From contig NZ_KE384560.1 of the NCBI RefSeq assembly GCF_000426725.1, positions 124,001 through 188,000 of the forward strand: 64,000 bases of DNA. The letters are read 5' to 3'. Each line of letters begins with the position of its first letter. The stretch's first letter is position 1. The notes beneath the pieces were generated by a model. The model was not told the origin of the DNA. It saw only the letters and a program-made list of their open reading frames with translations, and made no database searches. This DNA is from Sporocytophaga myxococcoides DSM 11118 (GTDB taxonomy: Bacteria; Bacteroidota; Bacteroidia; Cytophagales; Cytophagaceae). This document shows positions 3,193 to 48,921 of this stretch, in pieces. A program made the position numbers and the translations under genes.

Positions 3193-3738
3193 TTAGTTTA
3201 ATATCCTGACCGCTTTCACAAACCGCGGATGATAATAATCCGAATATAGGTCATCTTCAATAACCCCCATTTTGGTTGTTGAATGAATGAATTTGACACT
3301 GTTGCTCTTTACCTCTGTAACAAGACCAACATGGTTTATTTTATTTCCACCTTTATTATCGCTAAAGAATAGAAGATCGCCTTCTTTGACTTCTCCTATT
3401 TTTACAGTTTTTCCAAATTCGCTTTGGGCCGTTGAGGTCCTGGGTAGAGTAATCTCAATTGTTTTGTAGGAATTGCAAACCAGACCTGAGCAATCAATGC
3501 CTGATTTTGTTGTTCCTCCATACTTGTAGTGGGTACCAAGATATGATCTGGCAGAAGTGATTACCTGATGAGCCTTGTCTTCACTGGCCTTATCGGTTTT
3601 TACTATCTTAGTATTCGAATGATGATTTTTCGCGGATATACTTTGTTTCGATGACTTACAGGAAACCATCGCAGCAACAAAAATCGTTGAGAATAAGATT
3701 GGGTTAACTACTGTTTTGATAACTTTGAAGAAATGCAT
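3193..3738 (-). CDS. NlpC/P60-family cell-wall endopeptidase, lipoprotein
   Basis: This 181-residue protein starts with a lipoprotein signal whose lipobox ends at C27 (MVSC). The C-terminal NlpC/P60 (C40) domain, about residues 55-181, has the nucleophile C83 in DCSGLV, H136 in NHVGLV and the third polar residue H152. Members cut the D-glutamyl-diaminopimelate bond in peptidoglycan stems, and a lipidated form should act in the periplasm at a membrane. The residues after the lipid cysteine (KSSKQS) are not acidic, so there is no surface-export signal. It is divergent from the FAD oxidase gene 44 bases away, so the two promoters are back to back. Confidence 0.92.
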   Translation of the reverse strand: MHFFKVIKTVVNPILFSTIFVAAMVSCKSSKQSISAKNHHSNTKIVKTDKASEDKAHQVITSARSYLGTHYKYGGTTKSGIDCSGLVCNSYKTIEITLPRTSTAQSEFGKTVKIGEVKEGDLLFFSDNKGGNKINHVGLVTEVKSNSVKFIHSTTKMGVIEDDLYSDYYHPRFVKAVRILN

Positions 3739-3782: not shown

Positions 3783-5180
3783 ATGAATACGCAAACGATT
3801 ACGGAAAATTTTATTGATGAGTTGGTAAAAATTACTGGCCCTGAGTTTGTGTTCACAGATTCTGAATCATTGGAAAAATATGGTCAGGATGAGACAGAAG
3901 ATCTTGTTTTTCTCCCTCATGTGGTTGTGAAGCCTGCCAATCCTCAGGAAATCAGTTTGATAATCAGGCTTGCCAATCAACATAAAATTCCTGTTACACC
4001 CAGAGGTGCTGGTACTGGCTTGAGTGGTGGAGCATTGCCTGTTGAAAAGGGGATTCTTCTTTCTACAGAAAGACTTAATAAGATTATTTCCATAGATGAA
4101 AAAAATTTTCAGGCTACTGTGGAGACTGGGGTTGTGACTCAAATATTTCAGGAAGCAGTAATTGCTAAGGGCCTGTTTTACCCTCCTGACCCTTCAAGCA
4201 GAGGAAGCTGTTTTATCGGAGGAAACCTTGCAGAGTCTTCAGGGGGGCCGAAAGCAGTAAAATACGGTGTTACCAAAGATTACGTATTGAACCTTGAAGT
4301 GGTTTTGCCTACAGGGGAAATTATCTGGACGGGTGCCAATGTATTGAAAAATGCAACCGGATATAACCTCACGCAACTAATGATTGGAAGTGAAGGTACA
4401 CTCGGTATTATAACAAAAGTAGTTTTCAGGCTTATACCTCACCCTCCTAAAGACATTGTAATGCTTATTCCTTTCAGATCTTCAGAACAGGCTTGTGAGG
4501 CTGTTAACACAATATTGCATACAGGTGTAAGACCTTCAGCACTTGAGTTCATGGAAAGAGATGCTATTGAATGGAGTGTTAGATATCTCAATTTAGATTT
4601 GGATCTTCCTCAAGATGTTGAAGCTCATCTTCTGGTAGAGGTAGATGGAAATGATCTTGACTTGCTTTCTCGTGATGCTGAAAAAATTTATGAAGCTGTA
4701 AGTGGCTTTGACATTTATGAGCCTTTGTTTGCAGATTCGGCACAACAAAAGGAAGACTTATGGAAAGTCAGAAGAAATGTTGGTCATGCAGTAAAGTCAA
4801 ACTCAATATATAAAGAAGAAGATACTGTTGTTCCCAGAGCGGAGTTGCCTGCGCTTATTAAAGAAATTAAAAGAATTTCCAATAAATATAATTTTAAGTC
4901 TGTTTGCTATGGACATGCCGGGGATGGTAATCTGCATGTAAACATTGTAAGAGGAAATCTGAGTGAAAAAGAATGGAATGAAAATATTCAGGAAGGTATT
5001 AAAGAATTATTCAAATATACAGTTGCAGTTGGTGGTACAATCTCTGGAGAGCATGGTATTGGCTACGTTCAGCGTCCTTATATTGAAATAGCGATTGGAG
5101 AAAAACAGCTGGAGTTGATGAGAGAGATCAAAAAAGCTTTTGATCCCAATGGAATTTTAAACCCGAATAAAATTTTTTAA
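3783..5180 (+). CDS. FAD-linked oxidase of the GlcD / D-lactate dehydrogenase type
   Basis: This 465-residue protein has the two-part VAO fold. The FAD-binding half (about 35-215) carries PRGAGTGLSGG and PPDPSSRG-SCFIGGNLAESSGG. The C-terminal FAD-oxidase half carries CYGHAGDGNLHVNIV and SGEHGIG, and ends in the family signature FDPNGILNPNKIF. Such enzymes oxidise 2-hydroxy acids such as glycolate or D-lactate. The exact substrate cannot be read from sequence. No GlcE or GlcF partner lies beside it, which favours a single-subunit D-lactate dehydrogenase. The next gene starts 19 bases after its stop, so co-transcription is possible. Confidence 0.9.
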   Translation: MNTQTITENFIDELVKITGPEFVFTDSESLEKYGQDETEDLVFLPHVVVKPANPQEISLIIRLANQHKIPVTPRGAGTGLSGGALPVEKGILLSTERLNKIISIDEKNFQATVETGVVTQIFQEAVIAKGLFYPPDPSSRGSCFIGGNLAESSGGPKAVKYGVTKDYVLNLEVVLPTGEIIWTGANVLKNATGYNLTQLMIGSEGTLGIITKVVFRLIPHPPKDIVMLIPFRSSEQACEAVNTILHTGVRPSALEFMERDAIEWSVRYLNLDLDLPQDVEAHLLVEVDGNDLDLLSRDAEKIYEAVSGFDIYEPLFADSAQQKEDLWKVRRNVGHAVKSNSIYKEEDTVVPRAELPALIKEIKRISNKYNFKSVCYGHAGDGNLHVNIVRGNLSEKEWNENIQEGIKELFKYTVAVGGTISGEHGIGYVQRPYIEIAIGEKQLELMREIKKAFDPNGILNPNKIF

Positions 5181-40420: not shown

Positions 40421-43400
40421 ATGAAAAAAGTTATACTTTTTCTCCTGTTCCTGACTATAGCAATAACAGGTTCCATGGCGGGAACTGTATTTGTGGTAGA
40501 TAATAATGGAGATGGTGACAATGGAGCCGGCTATACAGCTAGTGACAATACCAATACCTTGAGAAAGTGTATTCGTCTCGCCAATAATACAGGGAACGGA
40601 GGAACGCCTCATCAGATTGTATTTAGACTAACTGCCGGGACAGTAATTCAGGTAAACTCTGATCTGCCTACTATCAATAATAATGGTAATGCTGGTGGTT
40701 TGGTTATTGATGCAACTATTGCACCTATGACTGGTTTCAGTGGGACACCACTAATTGGGATTTTTAGAAACAATGGTCAAAATGGAAATGGTTTTAATAT
40801 TGATGGAGCGAGCAATGTAACAGTTAGAGGTATTGCCATTCAAAATTTTAATGTTGGTATCAGGGTAAATAACTCAACAGGTTCAACTCTTGATAAAAAC
40901 TTCATAGGAACTAACCTTGCCGGTACTTCAATCGCCGGAACTACAATAAAAACAAGTGGTATATTTCTTGATGCAAATGCGTCCAATACAAATATTACTA
41001 ACAACGTAATATCAGGTTGTATGTCAGTGGGAGATGGAAATTTTTATGGTGCAATTAACATTAGACCAGGTTCTCACGGAGTTAAAATTACCTCAAACTT
41101 TATAGGTACGGATGCAACCGGTTCAAATTTACTTGGAAATGGAACCAATCAGCCATACAGACAACAAGGTATTTATATTGATGGTGCTTCAACTGTTGCA
41201 AATCCGATAGTAATCAGTGGTAACGTAATCTCGGGTAACATCGGTAATGGTATTTGGGCTACCAATACAGCAGGTCTGAAGATTGTAGGTAACCACATTG
41301 GTACAGACTTAGCAGGTACGAAAGCAATCGGTAATAAAGCAGCTGGTATCAGGGTTGACAGATCTAACAACGTAACGATTGGTGGATCTACAGTTGCAGA
41401 TAGAAATATAATTTCCGGAAACGGAGGTGCAATTGATAGCAGACCTTGCGGACCTGATTATTGTGGTGAGTCATGTAATTTTAATGCTTGTCCTACTGGA
41501 TATGATGCAACTCTGCAGACTGGGATTTACTTTTCAGAAGTTACATCTTCTAAAATATCAGGTAACTATGTAGGTACAAATGAAACAGGAGCATCTACCG
41601 GAACAGGTAATTCACTTGGAAACTTTTATGCAGGTATAAAACTGGAAACAAGTTCTTCCAATGTAACCATCGGAGGGAATACTGCTGCTGAAGGTAACGT
41701 GATCGGTGGCAATGGATTTGGTATTTATCCAAACAACGGAAAGGCATATAGAGGCCATGGTATTCAGCTTAATGGAGGATCTGTTAGCAACATCTTTGTT
41801 TATAACAACAGAGTGGGAGTTGGTCCAAACAATGAAGAAATTGGAAACCGTCAGGATGGTATATCACTTCTAGGTGCTCATGATTGTAAAATCGGAGACG
41901 CTGCTTCAATAGCGGATCCTGCCGGAAAAGGAAATATTGTAGGAAACAACTCATGGGGTATTTTCCTTCAGTCTGATTTCAGCAATAACGATAATAGTAA
42001 CCAGGCTAGGAACAATTCAATTAAAGGGAATTACCTTGGAAATGATGGTACTGCATTATTAGGTAACGGTACAAGAGCATTAGATGATGAGGGTGCTGGT
42101 ATTGGTATTCAGCATGGAAGTAATAATAACGTAGTTGAGCTTAACGTCATTTCAGGTAACAGGGATGGGATTACTTTCAGAGGGCAAGGTTTTGGAGCCG
42201 GAATCGCTAATAATTCAGAAACTACTTCTAATATAATCAGATCAAATTATATCGGTACTGATCAAACTGGCAAAACTGCCATGGCTAATAAAAACAATGG
42301 TATCCTTGTTACAGAAGGTGCACAATATATTACCATTGGTGGGACAGTCGCAGGACAGGGAAATATTATTGCAGGTAATACTGCAGATGGTATTCATATG
42401 GAAGATGGTGACAGGGTAAAAATATTCAATAATAAGATCGGTGTAGAAAAAGACGGACTGGCATTAGCAAACGGTGGAGATGGTATTGAGTTGAAGCAAA
42501 GCGCAGGTACGACAGGCGGAAGCTCCAATAATATAATTGGTGGTGTTAACGCTGGTGAGTCTAACACAATTGCAAACAATGCCGGAAACGGAGTGGTAGT
42601 TGATGGAACAACCTCAATCAATAACTCCATTCACCATAATTCTTTTTCTTGTAATGCGCTAAGAGGTATTGTTCTATCAAACGGTGGTAATAACAATTAT
42701 GCTAAACCCACATTTTCAGGAACTCCTACAAACTTCACAGTTACAGGTCCGGCAAATTCTTACATTGAAATATATGAAATTGACGCCTGTCATAATTGCG
42801 GATTGGATCCTGATAAAGTGCAGGGTAAAACATTAGTAAAATCAGGGCTTTCGCCTCAGTCATTTGTACCAGCAACAGGTAAGACAAATAAAGATTATAC
42901 AGCTATTGTTTCAGTAAATGGAACAACTGCAGCACATAACACTTCAGAATTTACTTCTTGTGTGGCTCTTTGCATAGAGCCAAAGCCAGATATCACAGGA
43001 AGCGCATATGCATTTTGCGATAATACTCAAAATGTAACATTCTCTACACCAAATGTTTCCGGAAATACTTATAGCTGGACTGTTACTGGTGGATTAACTA
43101 TAGTCGGCTCATCTACCGGAAGTAGCGTTACAATTAATGTAGGGGCAACGGGAGGAACACTTTCCGTTAAAGAGCTAGCTGGGGCTTGTGAAGGTATCCA
43201 TAGTAGAGTAATTACAGTTAACCAAAGACCTGAAACTCCTGGAATAGTTGGAAATATAAGCCCATGTGAAAATTCGACAGGAGTTAAATATAGTGTTCCT
43301 TTGACTGCTGGAACGACATATACCTGGACTGTTCCGACAGGAGTAACATTGGTTTCTGGCCAGGGCACTAATGAAATCACTGTTAATATTGGAGCAGCAG

Positions 43401-46400
43401 CAACCACTTCTGGGAAAATTACTGTTACTGCTAAAACCAGCAGTACAACTTGTGAGGATTTAACGCCAAGTGAAATTACTCTTGACGTGAAACCTCGCCC
43501 TGAAACTCCGGGAATCGTTGGAAATGCTACGCCATGTGAAAATACACCAGGTTTAAAGTATAATGTACCGGCTACAGCAGGTACTACTTACACTTGGACT
43601 GTGCCAGTCGGAGTAACGATTGTTTCTGGTCAAGGTACTAATGAAATCACAGTAAACATAGGAGCTGCTTCAGCGGCTTCAGGAGATATTACAGTTACTG
43701 CTAAAACTACCAGTACAACATGTGAAGATTTATCTCCAAGTAAAATTACACTTGACGTAAAACCAAGGCCAGAAACTCCAGGGATCGTTGGAAATGATGC
43801 TCCATGTGAAAATACACCAGGGTTCAAGTACAGTGTAACAGCAACAGCAGGAACAACATATACCTGGACTGTCCCTGGGGGCGTAACTATTGTTAGTGGT
43901 CAAGGTACTAATGAGATTACAGTAAATATAGGATCTGCAGCAACAGCTTCAGGAGAAATTACAGTAACTGCTAAAACTACCAGTACGACTTGTGAAGATT
44001 TGTCTCCAAGCAAAATTACACTTGATGTAAAACCACGTCCTGAGACTCCGGGAATTGTTGGAAATGCCGCACCTTGTGAAAATACTCCTGGATTAAAATA
44101 TAGTGTTCCTTCAACGGCAGGTACAACTTATACCTGGGCTGTTCCAACTGGAGTAACAATTATCTCCGGTCAGGGGACAAATGAAATCACTGTAGATATA
44201 GGTTCTGCAGCAACAGCTTCGGGAGAAATTACAGTAACTGCTAAAACTACCAGCACGACTTGTGAAGATTTATCTCCAAGCAAACTTACACTTGATGTAA
44301 AACCAAGACCAGAAACTCCTGGTATAGTTGGAAATTCTACTCCTTGCGAAAATACTCCTGGTTTAAAATACAGTGTTCCTTCAACAGCAGGTACAACTTA
44401 TACCTGGACTGTCCCAGCGGGTGTAACTATAGTATCCGGTCAGGGAACAAATGAAATAACAGTTAATGTAGGATCTGCATCGACAGCCTCAGGTGATATA
44501 ACAGTTGCAGCGAAAACAACAAGTACTACATGTGAGGATTTGAGCCCAAGCAAGTTCACTCTTGATGTGAAACCAAGACCTGAAACGCCGGGTATCGTAG
44601 GAGAAGCTAACCCTTGTGAAAATAGTCCAGGTCTAAAGTATAGTGTTCCATTAACAGCAGGTACAACTTATACCTGGGTAGTACCAACTGGAGTAACAAT
44701 TGTATCAGGTCAGGGGACAAACGAAATCACTGTTGATATTGGAACTTCTGCTACAGCTTCAGGAGATATCACAGTTTTTGCAACTACGACTTCAACAACT
44801 TGTGAGGATTTGTCTCCAAGCAAAATTACGCTTAATGTAAACCCAAGACCTGAAACCCCGGGAATCGTTGGAAATGATGCTCCTTGCGAAAATACACCTG
44901 GTTTAAAATATAGTGTTACTGCAACGGCTGGCTTAACTTACAACTGGACTGTCCCTGCAGGAGTAACAATTGTATCAGGTCAGGGCACCAACGAGATAAC
45001 TGTTAATATTGGTCCGGAAGCAACAGCGTCTGGAGATATCACGGTTTATGCATCTACCGGATCTTCTGCAACAGCTTGCTCCGATCTTTCACCTAGCACT
45101 ATAACACTTGATGTACAACCAAGACCAGAAACCCCAACAGTTAATGGTGATGATGAAGTTTGCGAAAATAGCAGTGGACATATTTACACTATACCTTCAG
45201 AGACAGGTGTAGAATATAAATGGACAGTCCCTGCAGGATTTACAATTACAGCAGGAGATAATACAAATAGCATCACTGTAAGTGTGGCAGAGGGAGCTTC
45301 GGATGGAATAATTAAAGTATATCTGGTAAATTCTACAACTAAGTGCGAGGATTTATCCCCAAGTGAATTTGCGGTAAAAGTAAATCCAAGACCAGTAACT
45401 CCTGGAATAACAGGAAGTGCTGAGGTCTGTGAAGATACTAAGGGACATATTTATTCAGTTCCTGCTGTAAGCGGAGTTGACTATAAGTGGTCTGTTCCTG
45501 CTGGATTTACAATTACCTCTGGAGATAATACAAATAGCATTACAGTAAGTGTTGCAGCTGGCACAACAGATGGCGTGATAAAAGCGTACTTGGTAAATCA
45601 GCAAAGTAATTGCGAAGATTTGACCCCAAGCGAAATTAGTATTAAGGTTAATACTCTTCCAGTTCTAACGTTGACTCCTGATGCTAATGAAATATGTGTA
45701 GGTTCGTCTACAGTATTAAAAACTGTTGTAACGGGAGGAAATGGTGCAGTTACTTATAATTGGACTGCAACTCCAGGACCGAATCCATCAGGAGAAAGCC
45801 CAACAGTGAGTCCTGCTGATACTACAATCTATACTTTAATAGTAACCGATACTAAAGGTTGTTCAGCTGATACACAATCTGTGCAAATTGATGTAAACGA
45901 AAATCCTGTTCTTGTAATCTCTACCACTGTTAATGACACTATTTGTAAAGGAACTTCGGCGGTTTTATCTACCAATATAACTAAAGGATATAAACCATAT
46001 ATATCTTTAGTTTGGACAGCAAATCCAGCACCTGTACCAAATCAGGATGATTTTAACCCTTCTGTTAGTCCGACAGTAACAACTGATTATACTGCTACAG
46101 TTACAGATTCTAAAAATTGTAAGGCAACAGATGCAATAAAGATTACTGTTATAGATGTTCCGGAAGGACCTCTCTCAGCGAATGTTGACAGATCAGTTAT
46201 CTGTAATACTGATACCAGAAATATCGAACTATCGGCTACTGCAGGTACCGATCCTAAAATTAAACCAATCTGGTACAAAGAAGGGTGCGGATTGGATTCT
46301 GTGACTACTGGATACACGGTTTCCATGGCTCCTCCGGATACAACAACTACCTATTATATAGCATTGAAAAATGTCTGTGGAATATCTGAATGTAAATCTG

Positions 46401-47539
46401 TAAAAGTAAAAGTCAACAAAGATCCTAAAGATGATCTGATAGATGCAATTGTTTCAGATACTTCAATTTGTAGCGCATATGCTGGAGTGATTGAATTGAG
46501 TGTGGATACCATTTATAATCCTGATGCAGTTATAAACTGGTATATGAAGGATAAAAATCTTAACGATAGTTTGATCGGTCACGGAACACCTTATGCTTTA
46601 CCTAAAAATCCAAAGGATACTACATATTATTATGTAAATCTGTTTGTTGAAGCATGTTTGCCTTCACCAACTGATTCAGTTCCTGTAAATGTAATTGATC
46701 CTAAAGTGGATGCCGGACCAAACAAAGCAGGTCAGTATATCTATTGTAAGAATAATGATAGAGCTTTAATTCTTGGAAGCGTTATACCTACCACTGGTGT
46801 GGATTGGAAATGGGTGCCAGAAAATCCGGCTGCTCCATTGTTGTTTGATACTACAAGGTTAGTTTCCCCGGTGAATACCAAAGCACCAGCTGAGAAACAA
46901 AAATGGTATCTGATTGCGGATAATGGAATATGTGAACCGGTTGTAGATTCAATGTATTTAACGGTTCATGACCTTCCGGTAGTAACACTTGATATTCCTC
47001 AGGATACACTTTGTTCCAAAGTAGAGTTTGATGCAGTTGCAACAGCTGTTAAAGGTGTACCTAATGCTTATGTATGGTTCACTCCAAACTCAAGTATTCC
47101 TGATACAAGTTATGTAATGGTAGATCATACTAGTCCATTAACGAAGAGATTTACTGCTGAAGTTGTTGGCAGAAACTACTTCCTCGTTACAGTTGTAGAT
47201 ACAAATAACTGCTGGGCTGAATTACCTGCAATAGATTCCGTAGAAATCTTTGATCATCAGGAGCTGGTTATTCCTAACCTGATGACGCCTAACCATGATG
47301 GTAAAAATGAAACATACATCATCAGAGACGTAAACAACTATGACATTCTTCCCGGAGCTAAACTTGAAGTTTACAACCGTTGGGGTGAGAGAGTTTACAA
47401 AAACTCAAGCTATGATAATAGCTGGGATGCCAAGAATGTCAATGATGGTATGTATTACTTCTACCTGAAGACCGGTTGCGCTAAAGATGAATACAAAGGC
47501 TGGCTGCATATTATAAGTAATAATAACAGACATGAGTAA
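40421..47539 (+). CDS. Giant T9SS cargo protein: beta-helix, tandem repeats, CHU_C sorting domain
   Basis: This 2372-residue protein has a signal peptide with likely cleavage after residue 20 (ITGSMA|G). Residues about 21-850 look like a right-handed beta-helix with repeated NxISGN and IGTDxxG turns, as in pectate-lyase-like proteins. Residues 936 to about 1745 hold nine tandem PKD/Ig-like units of about 90 residues. Each of the first seven carries PCEN(T/S)PG-like and CEDLSPS-like motifs, so two cysteines per unit. Residues about 1746-2270 contain further beta-sandwich domains. The last 90 or so residues (VIPNLMTPNHDGKNETY, VYNRWGERVY) are the CHU_C/type B sorting domain of T9SS. It should be secreted and attached to the cell surface. 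Catalytic residues were not identified, so adhesion and glycan binding are as likely as enzyme activity. Confidence 0.9.
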   Translation: MKKVILFLLFLTIAITGSMAGTVFVVDNNGDGDNGAGYTASDNTNTLRKCIRLANNTGNGGTPHQIVFRLTAGTVIQVNSDLPTINNNGNAGGLVIDATIAPMTGFSGTPLIGIFRNNGQNGNGFNIDGASNVTVRGIAIQNFNVGIRVNNSTGSTLDKNFIGTNLAGTSIAGTTIKTSGIFLDANASNTNITNNVISGCMSVGDGNFYGAINIRPGSHGVKITSNFIGTDATGSNLLGNGTNQPYRQQGIYIDGASTVANPIVISGNVISGNIGNGIWATNTAGLKIVGNHIGTDLAGTKAIGNKAAGIRVDRSNNVTIGGSTVADRNIISGNGGAIDSRPCGPDYCGESCNFNACPTGYDATLQTGIYFSEVTSSKISGNYVGTNETGASTGTGNSLGNFYAGIKLETSSSNVTIGGNTAAEGNVIGGNGFGIYPNNGKAYRGHGIQLNGGSVSNIFVYNNRVGVGPNNEEIGNRQDGISLLGAHDCKIGDAASIADPAGKGNIVGNNSWGIFLQSDFSNNDNSNQARNNSIKGNYLGNDGTALLGNGTRALDDEGAGIGIQHGSNNNVVELNVISGNRDGITFRGQGFGAGIANNSETTSNIIRSNYIGTDQTGKTAMANKNNGILVTEGAQYITIGGTVAGQGNIIAGNTADGIHMEDGDRVKIFNNKIGVEKDGLALANGGDGIELKQSAGTTGGSSNNIIGGVNAGESNTIANNAGNGVVVDGTTSINNSIHHNSFSCNALRGIVLSNGGNNNYAKPTFSGTPTNFTVTGPANSYIEIYEIDACHNCGLDPDKVQGKTLVKSGLSPQSFVPATGKTNKDYTAIVSVNGTTAAHNTSEFTSCVALCIEPKPDITGSAYAFCDNTQNVTFSTPNVSGNTYSWTVTGGLTIVGSSTGSSVTINVGATGGTLSVKELAGACEGIHSRVITVNQRPETPGIVGNISPCENSTGVKYSVPLTAGTTYTWTVPTGVTLVSGQGTNEITVNIGAAATTSGKITVTAKTSSTTCEDLTPSEITLDVKPRPETPGIVGNATPCENTPGLKYNVPATAGTTYTWTVPVGVTIVSGQGTNEITVNIGAASAASGDITVTAKTTSTTCEDLSPSKITLDVKPRPETPGIVGNDAPCENTPGFKYSVTATAGTTYTWTVPGGVTIVSGQGTNEITVNIGSAATASGEITVTAKTTSTTCEDLSPSKITLDVKPRPETPGIVGNAAPCENTPGLKYSVPSTAGTTYTWAVPTGVTIISGQGTNEITVDIGSAATASGEITVTAKTTSTTCEDLSPSKLTLDVKPRPETPGIVGNSTPCENTPGLKYSVPSTAGTTYTWTVPAGVTIVSGQGTNEITVNVGSASTASGDITVAAKTTSTTCEDLSPSKFTLDVKPRPETPGIVGEANPCENSPGLKYSVPLTAGTTYTWVVPTGVTIVSGQGTNEITVDIGTSATASGDITVFATTTSTTCEDLSPSKITLNVNPRPETPGIVGNDAPCENTPGLKYSVTATAGLTYNWTVPAGVTIVSGQGTNEITVNIGPEATASGDITVYASTGSSATACSDLSPSTITLDVQPRPETPTVNGDDEVCENSSGHIYTIPSETGVEYKWTVPAGFTITAGDNTNSITVSVAEGASDGIIKVYLVNSTTKCEDLSPSEFAVKVNPRPVTPGITGSAEVCEDTKGHIYSVPAVSGVDYKWSVPAGFTITSGDNTNSITVSVAAGTTDGVIKAYLVNQQSNCEDLTPSEISIKVNTLPVLTLTPDANEICVGSSTVLKTVVTGGNGAVTYNWTATPGPNPSGESPTVSPADTTIYTLIVTDTKGCSADTQSVQIDVNENPVLVISTTVNDTICKGTSAVLSTNITKGYKPYISLVWTANPAPVPNQDDFNPSVSPTVTTDYTATVTDSKNCKATDAIKITVIDVPEGPLSANVDRSVICNTDTRNIELSATAGTDPKIKPIWYKEGCGLDSVTTGYTVSMAPPDTTTTYYIALKNVCGISECKSVKVKVNKDPKDDLIDAIVSDTSICSAYAGVIELSVDTIYNPDAVINWYMKDKNLNDSLIGHGTPYALPKNPKDTTYYYVNLFVEACLPSPTDSVPVNVIDPKVDAGPNKAGQYIYCKNNDRALILGSVIPTTGVDWKWVPENPAAPLLFDTTRLVSPVNTKAPAEKQKWYLIADNGICEPVVDSMYLTVHDLPVVTLDIPQDTLCSKVEFDAVATAVKGVPNAYVWFTPNSSIPDTSYVMVDHTSPLTKRFTAEVVGRNYFLVTVVDTNNCWAELPAIDSVEIFDHQELVIPNLMTPNHDGKNETYIIRDVNNYDILPGAKLEVYNRWGERVYKNSSYDNSWDAKNVNDGMYYFYLKTGCAKDEYKGWLHIISNNNRHE
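43226..45655 (+). repeat. Tandem 270-bp coding repeats in the giant protein
   Basis: The first six unit starts are spaced exactly 270 bases apart (43226, 43496, 43766, 44036, 44306, 44576, 44846). The seventh unit is 276 bases, the eighth 267 bases, and the ninth is of similar length. The first seven are close copies of a 90-residue unit, and the last two are diverged. The DNA is nearly identical between several copies, which favours duplication and gene conversion. Confidence 0.92.
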
Positions 47540-47634: not shown

Positions 47635-47853
47635 TCAAGAGGTTTGTCTACTTTTTATTTTTCGTGATGCAGAGGTTAAAAATTTCTTTAGACTATAGGC
47701 AATACTCATCGTTATACAGGCCGGGCAAACACCAAACCGGAAGAACAAAAGCAACACCTTTTTATACCAATGTAGTTTAGCCGGGATATATGGACAACTT
47801 GTACCAGTGTCTTCATATTCTTTAATTCCCCAAATGTTAAATGACTTTTCCAT
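47635..47853 (-). CDS. Small Cys-containing protein, possible anti-sigma-like zinc finger
   Basis: This 72-residue protein (ATG at 47853) is not a recognised family. It has C20, and C43 and C46 as a CPAC pair, set within a hydrophobic-basic segment (KLHWYKKVLLLFFRFGVCPAC). That pattern resembles the short zf-HC2-like anti-sigma proteins of Bacteroidota, where a CxxC follows a charged amphipathic helix. It lies downstream of the ECF sigma gene and a 27-codon gene on the same strand, with short gaps. No first zinc cysteine-histidine pair is obvious, so zinc binding is uncertain. Confidence 0.55.
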   Translation of the reverse strand: MEKSFNIWGIKEYEDTGTSCPYIPAKLHWYKKVLLLFFRFGVCPACITMSIAYSLKKFLTSASRKIKSRQTS

Positions 47854-47865
47854 CTTTTGTACTCA

Positions 47866-47949
47866 TTAGTGTCCGAAGAAATAATAAATACACATAGCAG
47901 TTAGTCCGACCGAAATAATGCAAAGCAGGATTTTAGTTGATTTATTCAT
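47866..47949 (-). CDS. Predicted 27-residue membrane peptide
   Basis: This short frame starts at the ATG at 47947-47949 and ends at the TAA at 47866. It encodes MNKSTKILLCIISVGLTAM followed by CIYYFFGH, a single hydrophobic helix with a basic N-terminus. It lies between the ECF sigma gene and the CPAC protein gene, in the same direction. Its stop is 12 bases before the next ATG. It is too short for routine annotation. Position and clean membrane-helix character suggest it is real, but translation is not proven. Confidence 0.5.
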   Translation of the reverse strand: MNKSTKILLCIISVGLTAMCIYYFFGH

Positions 47950-48016
47950 AAAGTTTTTCTAATTAATACCAGAACATTCAGTCTATCACCCAAAGTAATA
48001 AAATAAAAAAGGGATA

Positions 48017-48565
48017 TTAAATCCCTTCTTCTATAGCCTTTTGTTTTTTCAATTGCTGAATGCATTTGTACTGCTGGTTGGCACCAGTATGTTTATTTTT
48101 CCATCCCATTTTCTTTATTAGATTATCCATGGGTTCTTTATAGAAGAAAATAGCAATTAAGATCTTCTGACAATTTTCTGTGATTCTTTTCAGCCATTCT
48201 GAAAGTTTCTGGTCTAAGCTTTTTTCAGATGCTTCATGTGGCAACTCCACATCATTTTGCCAGGATTCTATATTGTTAGAAGAGATTACTTTTTTATCTC
48301 TAAGCTGTTTCAACCAAAGGTTTTTTGCGATAGCAAACAAATAGGTCTTTAATCCAGATGTCAAAATAAAGTTTGGTTGCCTTATTTTCTGCAAAAGAAC
48401 AAGCACAGCTTCCTGAAAGATATCTTCAGCATCTGCTTCGTTTCCTTTATTACGTTTTATAAAAGATAAGATAGTCGGGAAATAATACTTATATAGTCTT
48501 TCATAAGCTTCACTATCTTCCGACTTTAATTCCTCGACGATATTATTGTCCGTAACAATTCCCAT
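48017..48565 (-). CDS. ECF-type RNA polymerase sigma factor
   Basis: This 182-residue protein has sigma-70 region 2 (about 12-80) with AYERLYKYYFPTILSFI and DAEDIFQEAVLVLL, and a shorter region 4 (about 130-180) with ILIAIFFYKEPMDNLIKKMGWKN. It lacks regions 1 and 3, as extracytoplasmic function sigma factors do. The usual SxxxSR-type region 4 motif is poor, so it may be a diverged group. It is the first gene of a reverse unit with two small genes, of which the last may be its anti-sigma. Its targets are unknown. Confidence 0.9.
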   Translation of the reverse strand: MGIVTDNNIVEELKSEDSEAYERLYKYYFPTILSFIKRNKGNEADAEDIFQEAVLVLLQKIRQPNFILTSGLKTYLFAIAKNLWLKQLRDKKVISSNNIESWQNDVELPHEASEKSLDQKLSEWLKRITENCQKILIAIFFYKEPMDNLIKKMGWKNKHTGANQQYKCIQQLKKQKAIEEGI

Positions 48566-48921
48566 TATCTGAATATAATTGGTGATTTAATTAATACCTA
48601 AAAACTTAAAAAATCACCCATAGATTTATAAATTATAAATGACCCCAAAGATTTGTTTCTCACTCCTTTTGTTTACTTTTTTGACTTTCAGTGTATATAT
48701 TACATCGTTGATAATTGAGGGATTATCATCTAGCCAGGAATTTCCTGGCCTCCAAATAATAATAGCAACACTTACATTAAAATTTGAATGATTTTAAGCC
48801 CCAAACTGAGGCTCTTTAATCATGCGGCCGTTTTCCATCTTTCTAAAATCGATGGTTTATGGCTTATAATTTTATTTATACCATAACCTTAATTTTAATT
48901 AGAACCCATTATTTACGCATT
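48566..48921. promoter_or_regulatory. Divergent promoter region with a palindrome at 48733-48749
   Basis: This 356-base stretch separates the ECF gene from the sugar dehydrogenase gene. It holds an inverted repeat with 8-bp arms, GCCAGGAA and TTCCTGGC, around a single T, which could be an operator. I see no gene here. Confidence 0.4.

Follow-up and report, generated by a model that had tools for sequence, protein, structure and literature searches.

The window, by which we mean the whole analysed stretch of 64,000 nucleotides from the genome of Sporocytophaga myxococcoides DSM 11118, carries a compact module on its minus strand that consists of a sigma factor gene (48017..48565; 182 aa), a gene for a 27-aa single-helix peptide (47866..47949) and, after a gap of 12 nt, a gene for a 72-aa protein with a CPxC motif (CPAC here; 47635..47853). 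All three open reading frames (ORFs) were found where the earlier note, made from the letters alone, had placed them. The sigma factor, identified by its ORF, profile matches, position in a tree and neighbours, belongs to the ECF superfamily, scoring 65 bits against TIGR02937 (cut-off 42.9) and 43.6 against Sigma70_r2 (cut-off 24; E=2.5e-11). The peptide, characterized through its family, pN/pS and hydropathy, contains one hydrophobic segment of transmembrane length, as its earlier description as a single-helix product implied. The CPxC protein has three conserved cysteines (C20, C43 and C46) and a hydrophobic helical segment. A membrane anti-sigma factor was sought among the neighbouring ORFs, and none adjoins the sigma gene, which bears out the earlier remark that a conventional anti-sigma factor is missing. 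No redox enzyme adjoins the module in the window's own locus either. In Sporocytophaga, the module is pared down to the sigma factor and the pair of mini-genes.

Other features had escaped the earlier note. A two-box, promoter-like element, GGGTGAT-N14-GGTATTAATTA, lies on the minus strand at 48588..48619, 22 nt 5' of the sigma start codon, where it presumably mediates autoregulation, and a second exact copy, with both boxes and the spacing identical, is located at 47960..47991 on the same strand, 10 nt 5' of the peptide start codon. Between the sigma and peptide genes, a terminator-like hairpin with a T tail (48005..48031, minus strand) overlaps the end of the sigma gene; the 37-nt stretch around the hairpin folds with -12.9 kcal/mol (z -2.98).

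The distribution of the module is patchy overall. In two genomes of the same genus (G001 and G003), the side of the locus that encodes a glucose/sorbosone dehydrogenase is conserved up to about positions 48646-48670 of the window (loci L239 and L240), that is, conservation ends just upstream of the sigma promoter, and the corresponding stretch lacks both the module and the giant adhesin-like gene next to it. This pattern is consistent with gain or loss of the stretch that comprises the module and the giant gene. The product of the latter (40421-47539), a large surface protein of 2372 aa, combines ten PKD-like stretches with a beta-helix region and a CHU_C type IX secretion domain.

Two families of mini-proteins

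Homologues of the CPxC protein were detected in 8 of the 98 genomes in the sample of relatives (one a weak match with stops), in 6 of the 295 class-level genomes (one weak) and, by a pattern scan, in 56 loci of named genomes. The latter scan used the amino-acid pattern FFRFG[VLI]CP, so that the conservation of these columns results from the selection of matches; C20, C46 and S50 lie outside the pattern. After merging duplicates, the working set includes 59 loci, namely, 52 from Bacteroidota, 4 from Ignavibacteriota, 2 that lack a phylum label, and the window's own; because L065 and L085 represent a single gene at two contig ends, these correspond to 58 distinct genes. The alignment of the CPxC protein contains 56 rows, with the degenerate L093 and the contig-end loci L065 and L085 left out. 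The proteins of this family are 60-90 aa long, and those of the peptide family, 26-27 aa.

The peptide, searched for with a profile built from its own locus matches, is encoded upstream of the CPxC gene in 40 loci, near relatives included: 39 have it as an ORF, and in L053, the reading frame is present but a usual start codon is not. The gap between the two genes is 5-28 nt, with a single exception of 59 nt. The three strong peptide matches in the class sample all come from genomes that encode the CPxC protein. The family consensus is MxKxTKIILCIxSVxLTxxCxYHFFG, with a conserved cysteine near the C-terminal end. Pooled pN/pS values are 0.19 for the peptide and 0.22 for the CPxC protein (12 pairs), next to 0.21 for the sigma factor (10 of those pairs). 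The predominance of synonymous changes in the codon pattern implies that both mini-genes are translated and selected as proteins and, together with the homologues in many genomes, rules out chance ORFs. Thus, the small frames, on whose conservation the earlier note had made its proposal depend, are well conserved.

With the best 19-residue hydropathy at 1.86-2.68 in 40 members and a basic N-terminus, the peptide has the features of a single-pass membrane micropeptide, and its association with the membrane is likely; for the CPxC protein (1.31-2.17, median 1.78), membrane association is plausible. A structure model of the CPxC protein, inspected also for the four-helix domain of zinc anti-sigma factors, predicts two helices with modest confidence (pLDDT 72, pTM 0.40); a fold search with this model returned no match, and neither a thioredoxin fold nor a thioredoxin family match was found for this protein. 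Searches of Pfam and NCBIfam with 56 members each, and of PDB sequences, gave stray weak matches to the CPxC protein, none of them convincing. The window peptide has weak matches to PsbN in Pfam and NCBIfam, all below the cut-offs. Thus, we found no entry for either of these small-protein families in Pfam or NCBIfam; members of one are just 26 residues long. A viral origin was considered and rejected: of 127 stretches of viral contigs that fit the pattern, none could be confirmed as a relative.

Two individual loci deserve mention. In one Xanthocytophaga (L006 / L094), the CPxC frame has no usable start when compared with the near relative L007, which points either to decay of this copy or to an error in the sequence. 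L056 encodes two 26-aa copies of the peptide (3652-3732 and 3900-3980), each unit with its own element.

The sigma factor clade and its linkage to the mini-genes

In a tree of 83 sigma factors (L044, L048, L081 and L169 were left out), 60 rows form a clade that is split from 23 sister rows with 100/100 support. Two traits separate these groups. The element, with at most two mismatches, accompanies 49 of the 60 clade sigma genes, either upstream or shortly downstream, and none of the 23 sisters; the remaining 11 clade sigma genes have no element beside them. Conversely, a downstream membrane-protein neighbour, defined as an adjacent ORF of at least 250 aa with a transmembrane segment, accompanies 22 of the 23 sisters and none of the 58 clade sigma genes with enough downstream DNA, a contrast with a Fisher p of ~6e-19 when kinship is ignored (L065, L081, L090 and L169, with too little downstream DNA, were left out of the neighbour count). 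In L078, a 369-aa ORF 185 nt downstream has a hydropathy of 1.58, just below the threshold of 1.6, and the hydrophobic N-terminus of its product resembles a signal peptide. Thus, the absence of an adjoining conventional anti-sigma factor extends from the window to this ECF branch, which makes the question of how the sigma factor is kept off a concrete and testable one.

The neighbours of the sister sigma factors are termed anti-sigma-like here by position and architecture. Three of the five tested contain a trypsin-like domain, and the other two have no Pfam family; these proteins (L022, L029 and L176; also L030 and L184) are candidates for a protease-type anti-sigma factor or sensor. Within the sigma factor itself, the clade-specific residues, such as H159 and Q171, are mostly in region 4, which would fit a changed -35 preference. 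Redox sensing by clade-specific cysteines of the sigma factor was rejected: C132 and C168 are equally invariant in 61 clade and 23 sister rows. The Chitinophaga clade sigma genes (L171-L174) adjoin a gene for a Crp-like (cNMP-binding) regulator (one of the four tested against Pfam), a candidate for their transcriptional control.

The mini-genes keep close company with this clade, a full-length clade sigma gene being present in 46 of the 59 CPxC loci; L070 and L072 hold sigma fragments. The reverse does not hold. At least 15 genomes in the sample of relatives encode a clade sigma factor (a lower bound, from the top sigma loci), and a search with a single CPxC sequence found the CPxC protein in 6 of these and failed to find it in 9; with a profile that recovered the window's genome (G000) at 9e-33 as the positive control, it was not found in any of 11 genomes; two of the 11 carry the element, with no sigma factor placed in the clade. 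Even within the genus, the CPxC protein is present in G002 and absent from G001 and G003. Thus, presence of the CPxC protein largely implies that of the sigma factor, and not the other way round.

We searched for an unlinked clade sigma gene in ten genomes whose CPxC locus has no full-length adjacent one. In five genomes of a single genus, Chitinophaga (G383-G386 and G390), a clade sigma gene is located elsewhere (46-50% identity to a Chitinophaga query), each time preceded by the element, and the mini-gene pair, apart from the sigma gene, has the element as well. In G387, the clade sigma gene lies within the same island at a distance of ~5.5 kb; G391 is a contig-break case. No convincing clade sigma factor was found by this search in G388 (at best a 37% fragment), G389 (generic-level matches, the best with 32% identity) or G392 (none). 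The CPxC gene comes right after the sigma gene, with no site of its own, in four loci of Ignavibacteriota/Kapaibacteria; in a fifth (L091), it does have one.

The earlier note had proposed that the two mini-proteins jointly make a split anti-sigma factor. That they belong together and with the sigma factor is supported by these observations; their function as an anti-sigma factor is not. As a split or minimal anti-sigma factor, the pair would hold the sigma factor at the membrane until oxidation of the cysteines frees it, or else the two proteins would inhibit the sigma factor by feedback after it has been switched on. Such a role fits the frequent presence of a full-length clade sigma gene at the CPxC loci, the three-cysteine pattern of the small protein and the lack of another anti-sigma factor beside the sigma gene; the gene order in the four Ignavibacteriota/Kapaibacteria loci is also that expected of an anti-sigma factor. 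However, in the window, the pair lies behind a hairpin and is preceded by a separate copy of the presumed sigma promoter, so that it would be made mainly after the sigma factor has become active. Furthermore, an obligate partner is expected wherever the sigma factor is, but the CPxC protein is absent from 9 of the 15 sampled genomes with a clade sigma factor, and the pair of the five Chitinophaga genomes retains the element although it lies apart from the sigma gene. The HxxxCxxC motif is missing, too. All told, we consider an anti-sigma role of the pair unlikely. The specific case of a zinc anti-sigma factor (ZAS) was rejected on the absence of HxxxCxxC, position -4 from C43 being occupied by R39 in 56/56 rows, in a column that lies inside the search pattern.

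Specificity of the two-box element

Across the genomes, the element has the general form GGGTGAT-N14/15-GGTATTAA and occurs upstream of the sigma gene and again upstream of the peptide gene. The window contains 2 exact matches against 0.05 matches expected with up to three mismatches. At the same stringency, the complete genome yields 10 matches, that is, the 2 exact ones at this locus and 8 with three mismatches, compared with 7 for the reversed control; hence the strict form of the element, shared by the two transcription units, is confined to the module locus, and no further targets above the level of the reversed control were found in this genome.

For scans of other genomes, we used the strict pattern GGGTGATN14-15GGTATNAA, with H in place of the free base in the scan of 41 related genomes. 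It matched 23 sites in the 98 genomes of relatives (2 in controls) and 58 in the 59 CPxC loci (438 kb; the lineages are not independent), where the reversed control gave none. Of these 58 sites, 57 are upstream of a module gene, and the remaining one was missed solely because the ORF caller took an early sigma start. In the 41 related genomes, there are 64 strict sites against 0 in the reversed control, with 0-4 per genome: 55 lie at the module or at the clade sigma gene of the genome (matched by sequence to known sites, or in the island L234), and a further site, located 35 nt upstream of a clade sigma gene at a contig end, brings the number at the module or its sigma gene to 56; the other 8 are within ORFs, on one strand or the other. 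Four of these genomes have no strict site, their loci holding variants within two mismatches. Applied to the 295 genomes of the class-wide sample, the strict pattern produced 40 matches compared with 17 for the reversed controls, so that many of the matches outside the lineages that carry the module are background. The element is informative mainly where the clade sigma factor is present; there, it is clean enough for predicting the regulation of the mini-genes across Bacteroidota and Ignavibacteriota.

In 31 of the 33 loci that have both sites, the two spacers are of equal length (14 nt in 23 and 15 nt in 8); the two exceptions come from genomes without the CPxC protein. As this agreement amounts to about two switches on the tree and is not significant, we do not count it as independent evidence.

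The most likely interpretation of these sequence patterns is that the element is the promoter used by the sigma factor itself, with the mini-proteins as output; very probably, then, the sigma factor drives both itself and the mini-gene pair through the element. The alternative is that the element is an operator through which an unlinked transcription factor governs both units, the sigma factor reading another promoter. In its favour, the element is defined by sequence only, and 11 of the 60 clade sigma genes have none nearby. Nevertheless, the asymmetric boxes, the 14-15 nt spacer and the location 10 and 22 nt before the start codons in the window resemble a -35/-10 pair, the element separates the clade from its sisters (49/60 vs 0/23), and the clade-specific residues of the sigma factor fall in region 4, all of which makes the operator an improbable explanation. 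A private sigma-promoter pair with so few strict sites per genome could serve as an orthogonal switch.

Redox neighbours and the role of the pair

In relatives, the genes between or beside the sigma gene and the pair encode a secreted thioredoxin-like protein, a peroxiredoxin, DoxX, AhpD-like proteins and an FMN reductase. For the secreted thioredoxin-like neighbour, a thioredoxin fold is predicted (model and Foldseek), and a signal peptide is likely. Elsewhere in genomes of the relatives sample, elements lie before genes for YceI, thioredoxin-like, peroxiredoxin and DUF2911 proteins. In one genus (L107, L122, L108, L110 and L124), the element is found before a YceI gene and a secreted thioredoxin-like gene, both far from the sigma gene, which suggests a regulon in trans in that genus. 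The island L234 combines genes for DoxX, three thioredoxin-like proteins, the sigma factor, an FMN reductase, DsbD, a flavoprotein (Pyr_redox_2), two peptides (identified in the overlapping locus L056) and the CPxC protein with four elements; we take the flavoprotein to be thioredoxin-reductase-like on the basis of its CAVC motif.

The cysteines of the pair and these redox neighbours in relatives point to a role in thiol chemistry. The competing possibility is that the pair handles metals, the CPxC motif in a membrane helix binding soft metals and the sigma factor acting as a metal-stress regulator. The metal sites of P-type ATPases include CPxC in a hydrophobic helix, which the CPxC protein resembles; yet the annotated neighbours (a part of all neighbours) are a peroxiredoxin, thioredoxin-like, DoxX, AhpD-like and DsbD proteins, with no metal transporter among them, and metal handling appears quite improbable.

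We consider it probable, on balance, that this is a self-amplifying ECF module that yields a membrane thiol pair. The sigma factor, with no usual anti-sigma factor beside it, would probably be produced at a low level that is raised by stress. Once active, it would read the element before its own gene, generating positive feedback, and the second element, before the mini-gene pair, its sole detectable target in this genome. The products would be a single-pass membrane peptide with a cysteine and a C...CPxC protein with the motif in a hydrophobic helical segment. Located at the inner membrane, the two could jointly serve as a thiol-redox component that repairs, relays or buffers disulfides or oxidant-modified thiols, given that in relatives the element precedes or neighbours genes for secreted thioredoxin-like, peroxiredoxin, DoxX and AhpD-like proteins and, in a single island, for DsbD and the thioredoxin-reductase-like flavoprotein; such a thiol-redox role at the membrane may well be the correct one, with slight preference over other roles. 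More tentatively, and we would not lean on it, the peptide and the CPxC protein might constitute a minimal thiol device of two chains within the membrane, in which the cysteine helix docks to the CPxC helix. Such a device would transmit or sense disulfide stress from one side of the inner membrane to the other and would be made by a dedicated, self-amplifying and anti-sigma-free ECF sigma factor, with the pair as the whole regulon in some species.

Comparison with known systems

Among the literature matches listed, there is no apparent description of the sigma-peptide-CPxC set or of the element. With respect to membrane-spanning anti-sigma factors, the sister sigma factors have an anti-sigma-like membrane neighbour (22/23), whereas the clade has none adjoining (0/58). 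The parallel with DsbD and with ResA/TlpA-like thioredoxin relays consists in the secreted neighbour with a predicted thioredoxin fold and in the DsbD gene of one island; the CPxC protein differs in having no convincing match in Pfam, NCBIfam or PDB.

RsrA is a small cysteine protein encoded beside an ECF sigma factor of thiol or oxidant stress. RshA and ChrR are likewise small cysteine proteins beside ECF sigma factors of this kind (PMC8999054). The CPxC protein resembles these ZAS proteins as a small cysteine protein that accompanies an ECF sigma factor; unlike them, it lacks HxxxCxxC, has a hydrophobic helical segment and its own element, and is absent from 9 of the 15 genomes with a clade sigma factor.

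By description, the only basis of comparison here, the module is also similar to ECF114, in which Bacteroidota ECF sigma factors are tied to oxygen or oxidative stress and have no anti-sigma factor. Examples are SigH of Porphyromonas gingivalis and SigR-1 and SigH-1 of Bacteroides thetaiotaomicron, the P. gingivalis SigH being listed as transcriptionally regulated and without an anti-sigma factor (PMC8999054, PMC12596196). The difference is that the module described here has specific partner proteins, a promoter element and a very small local regulon.
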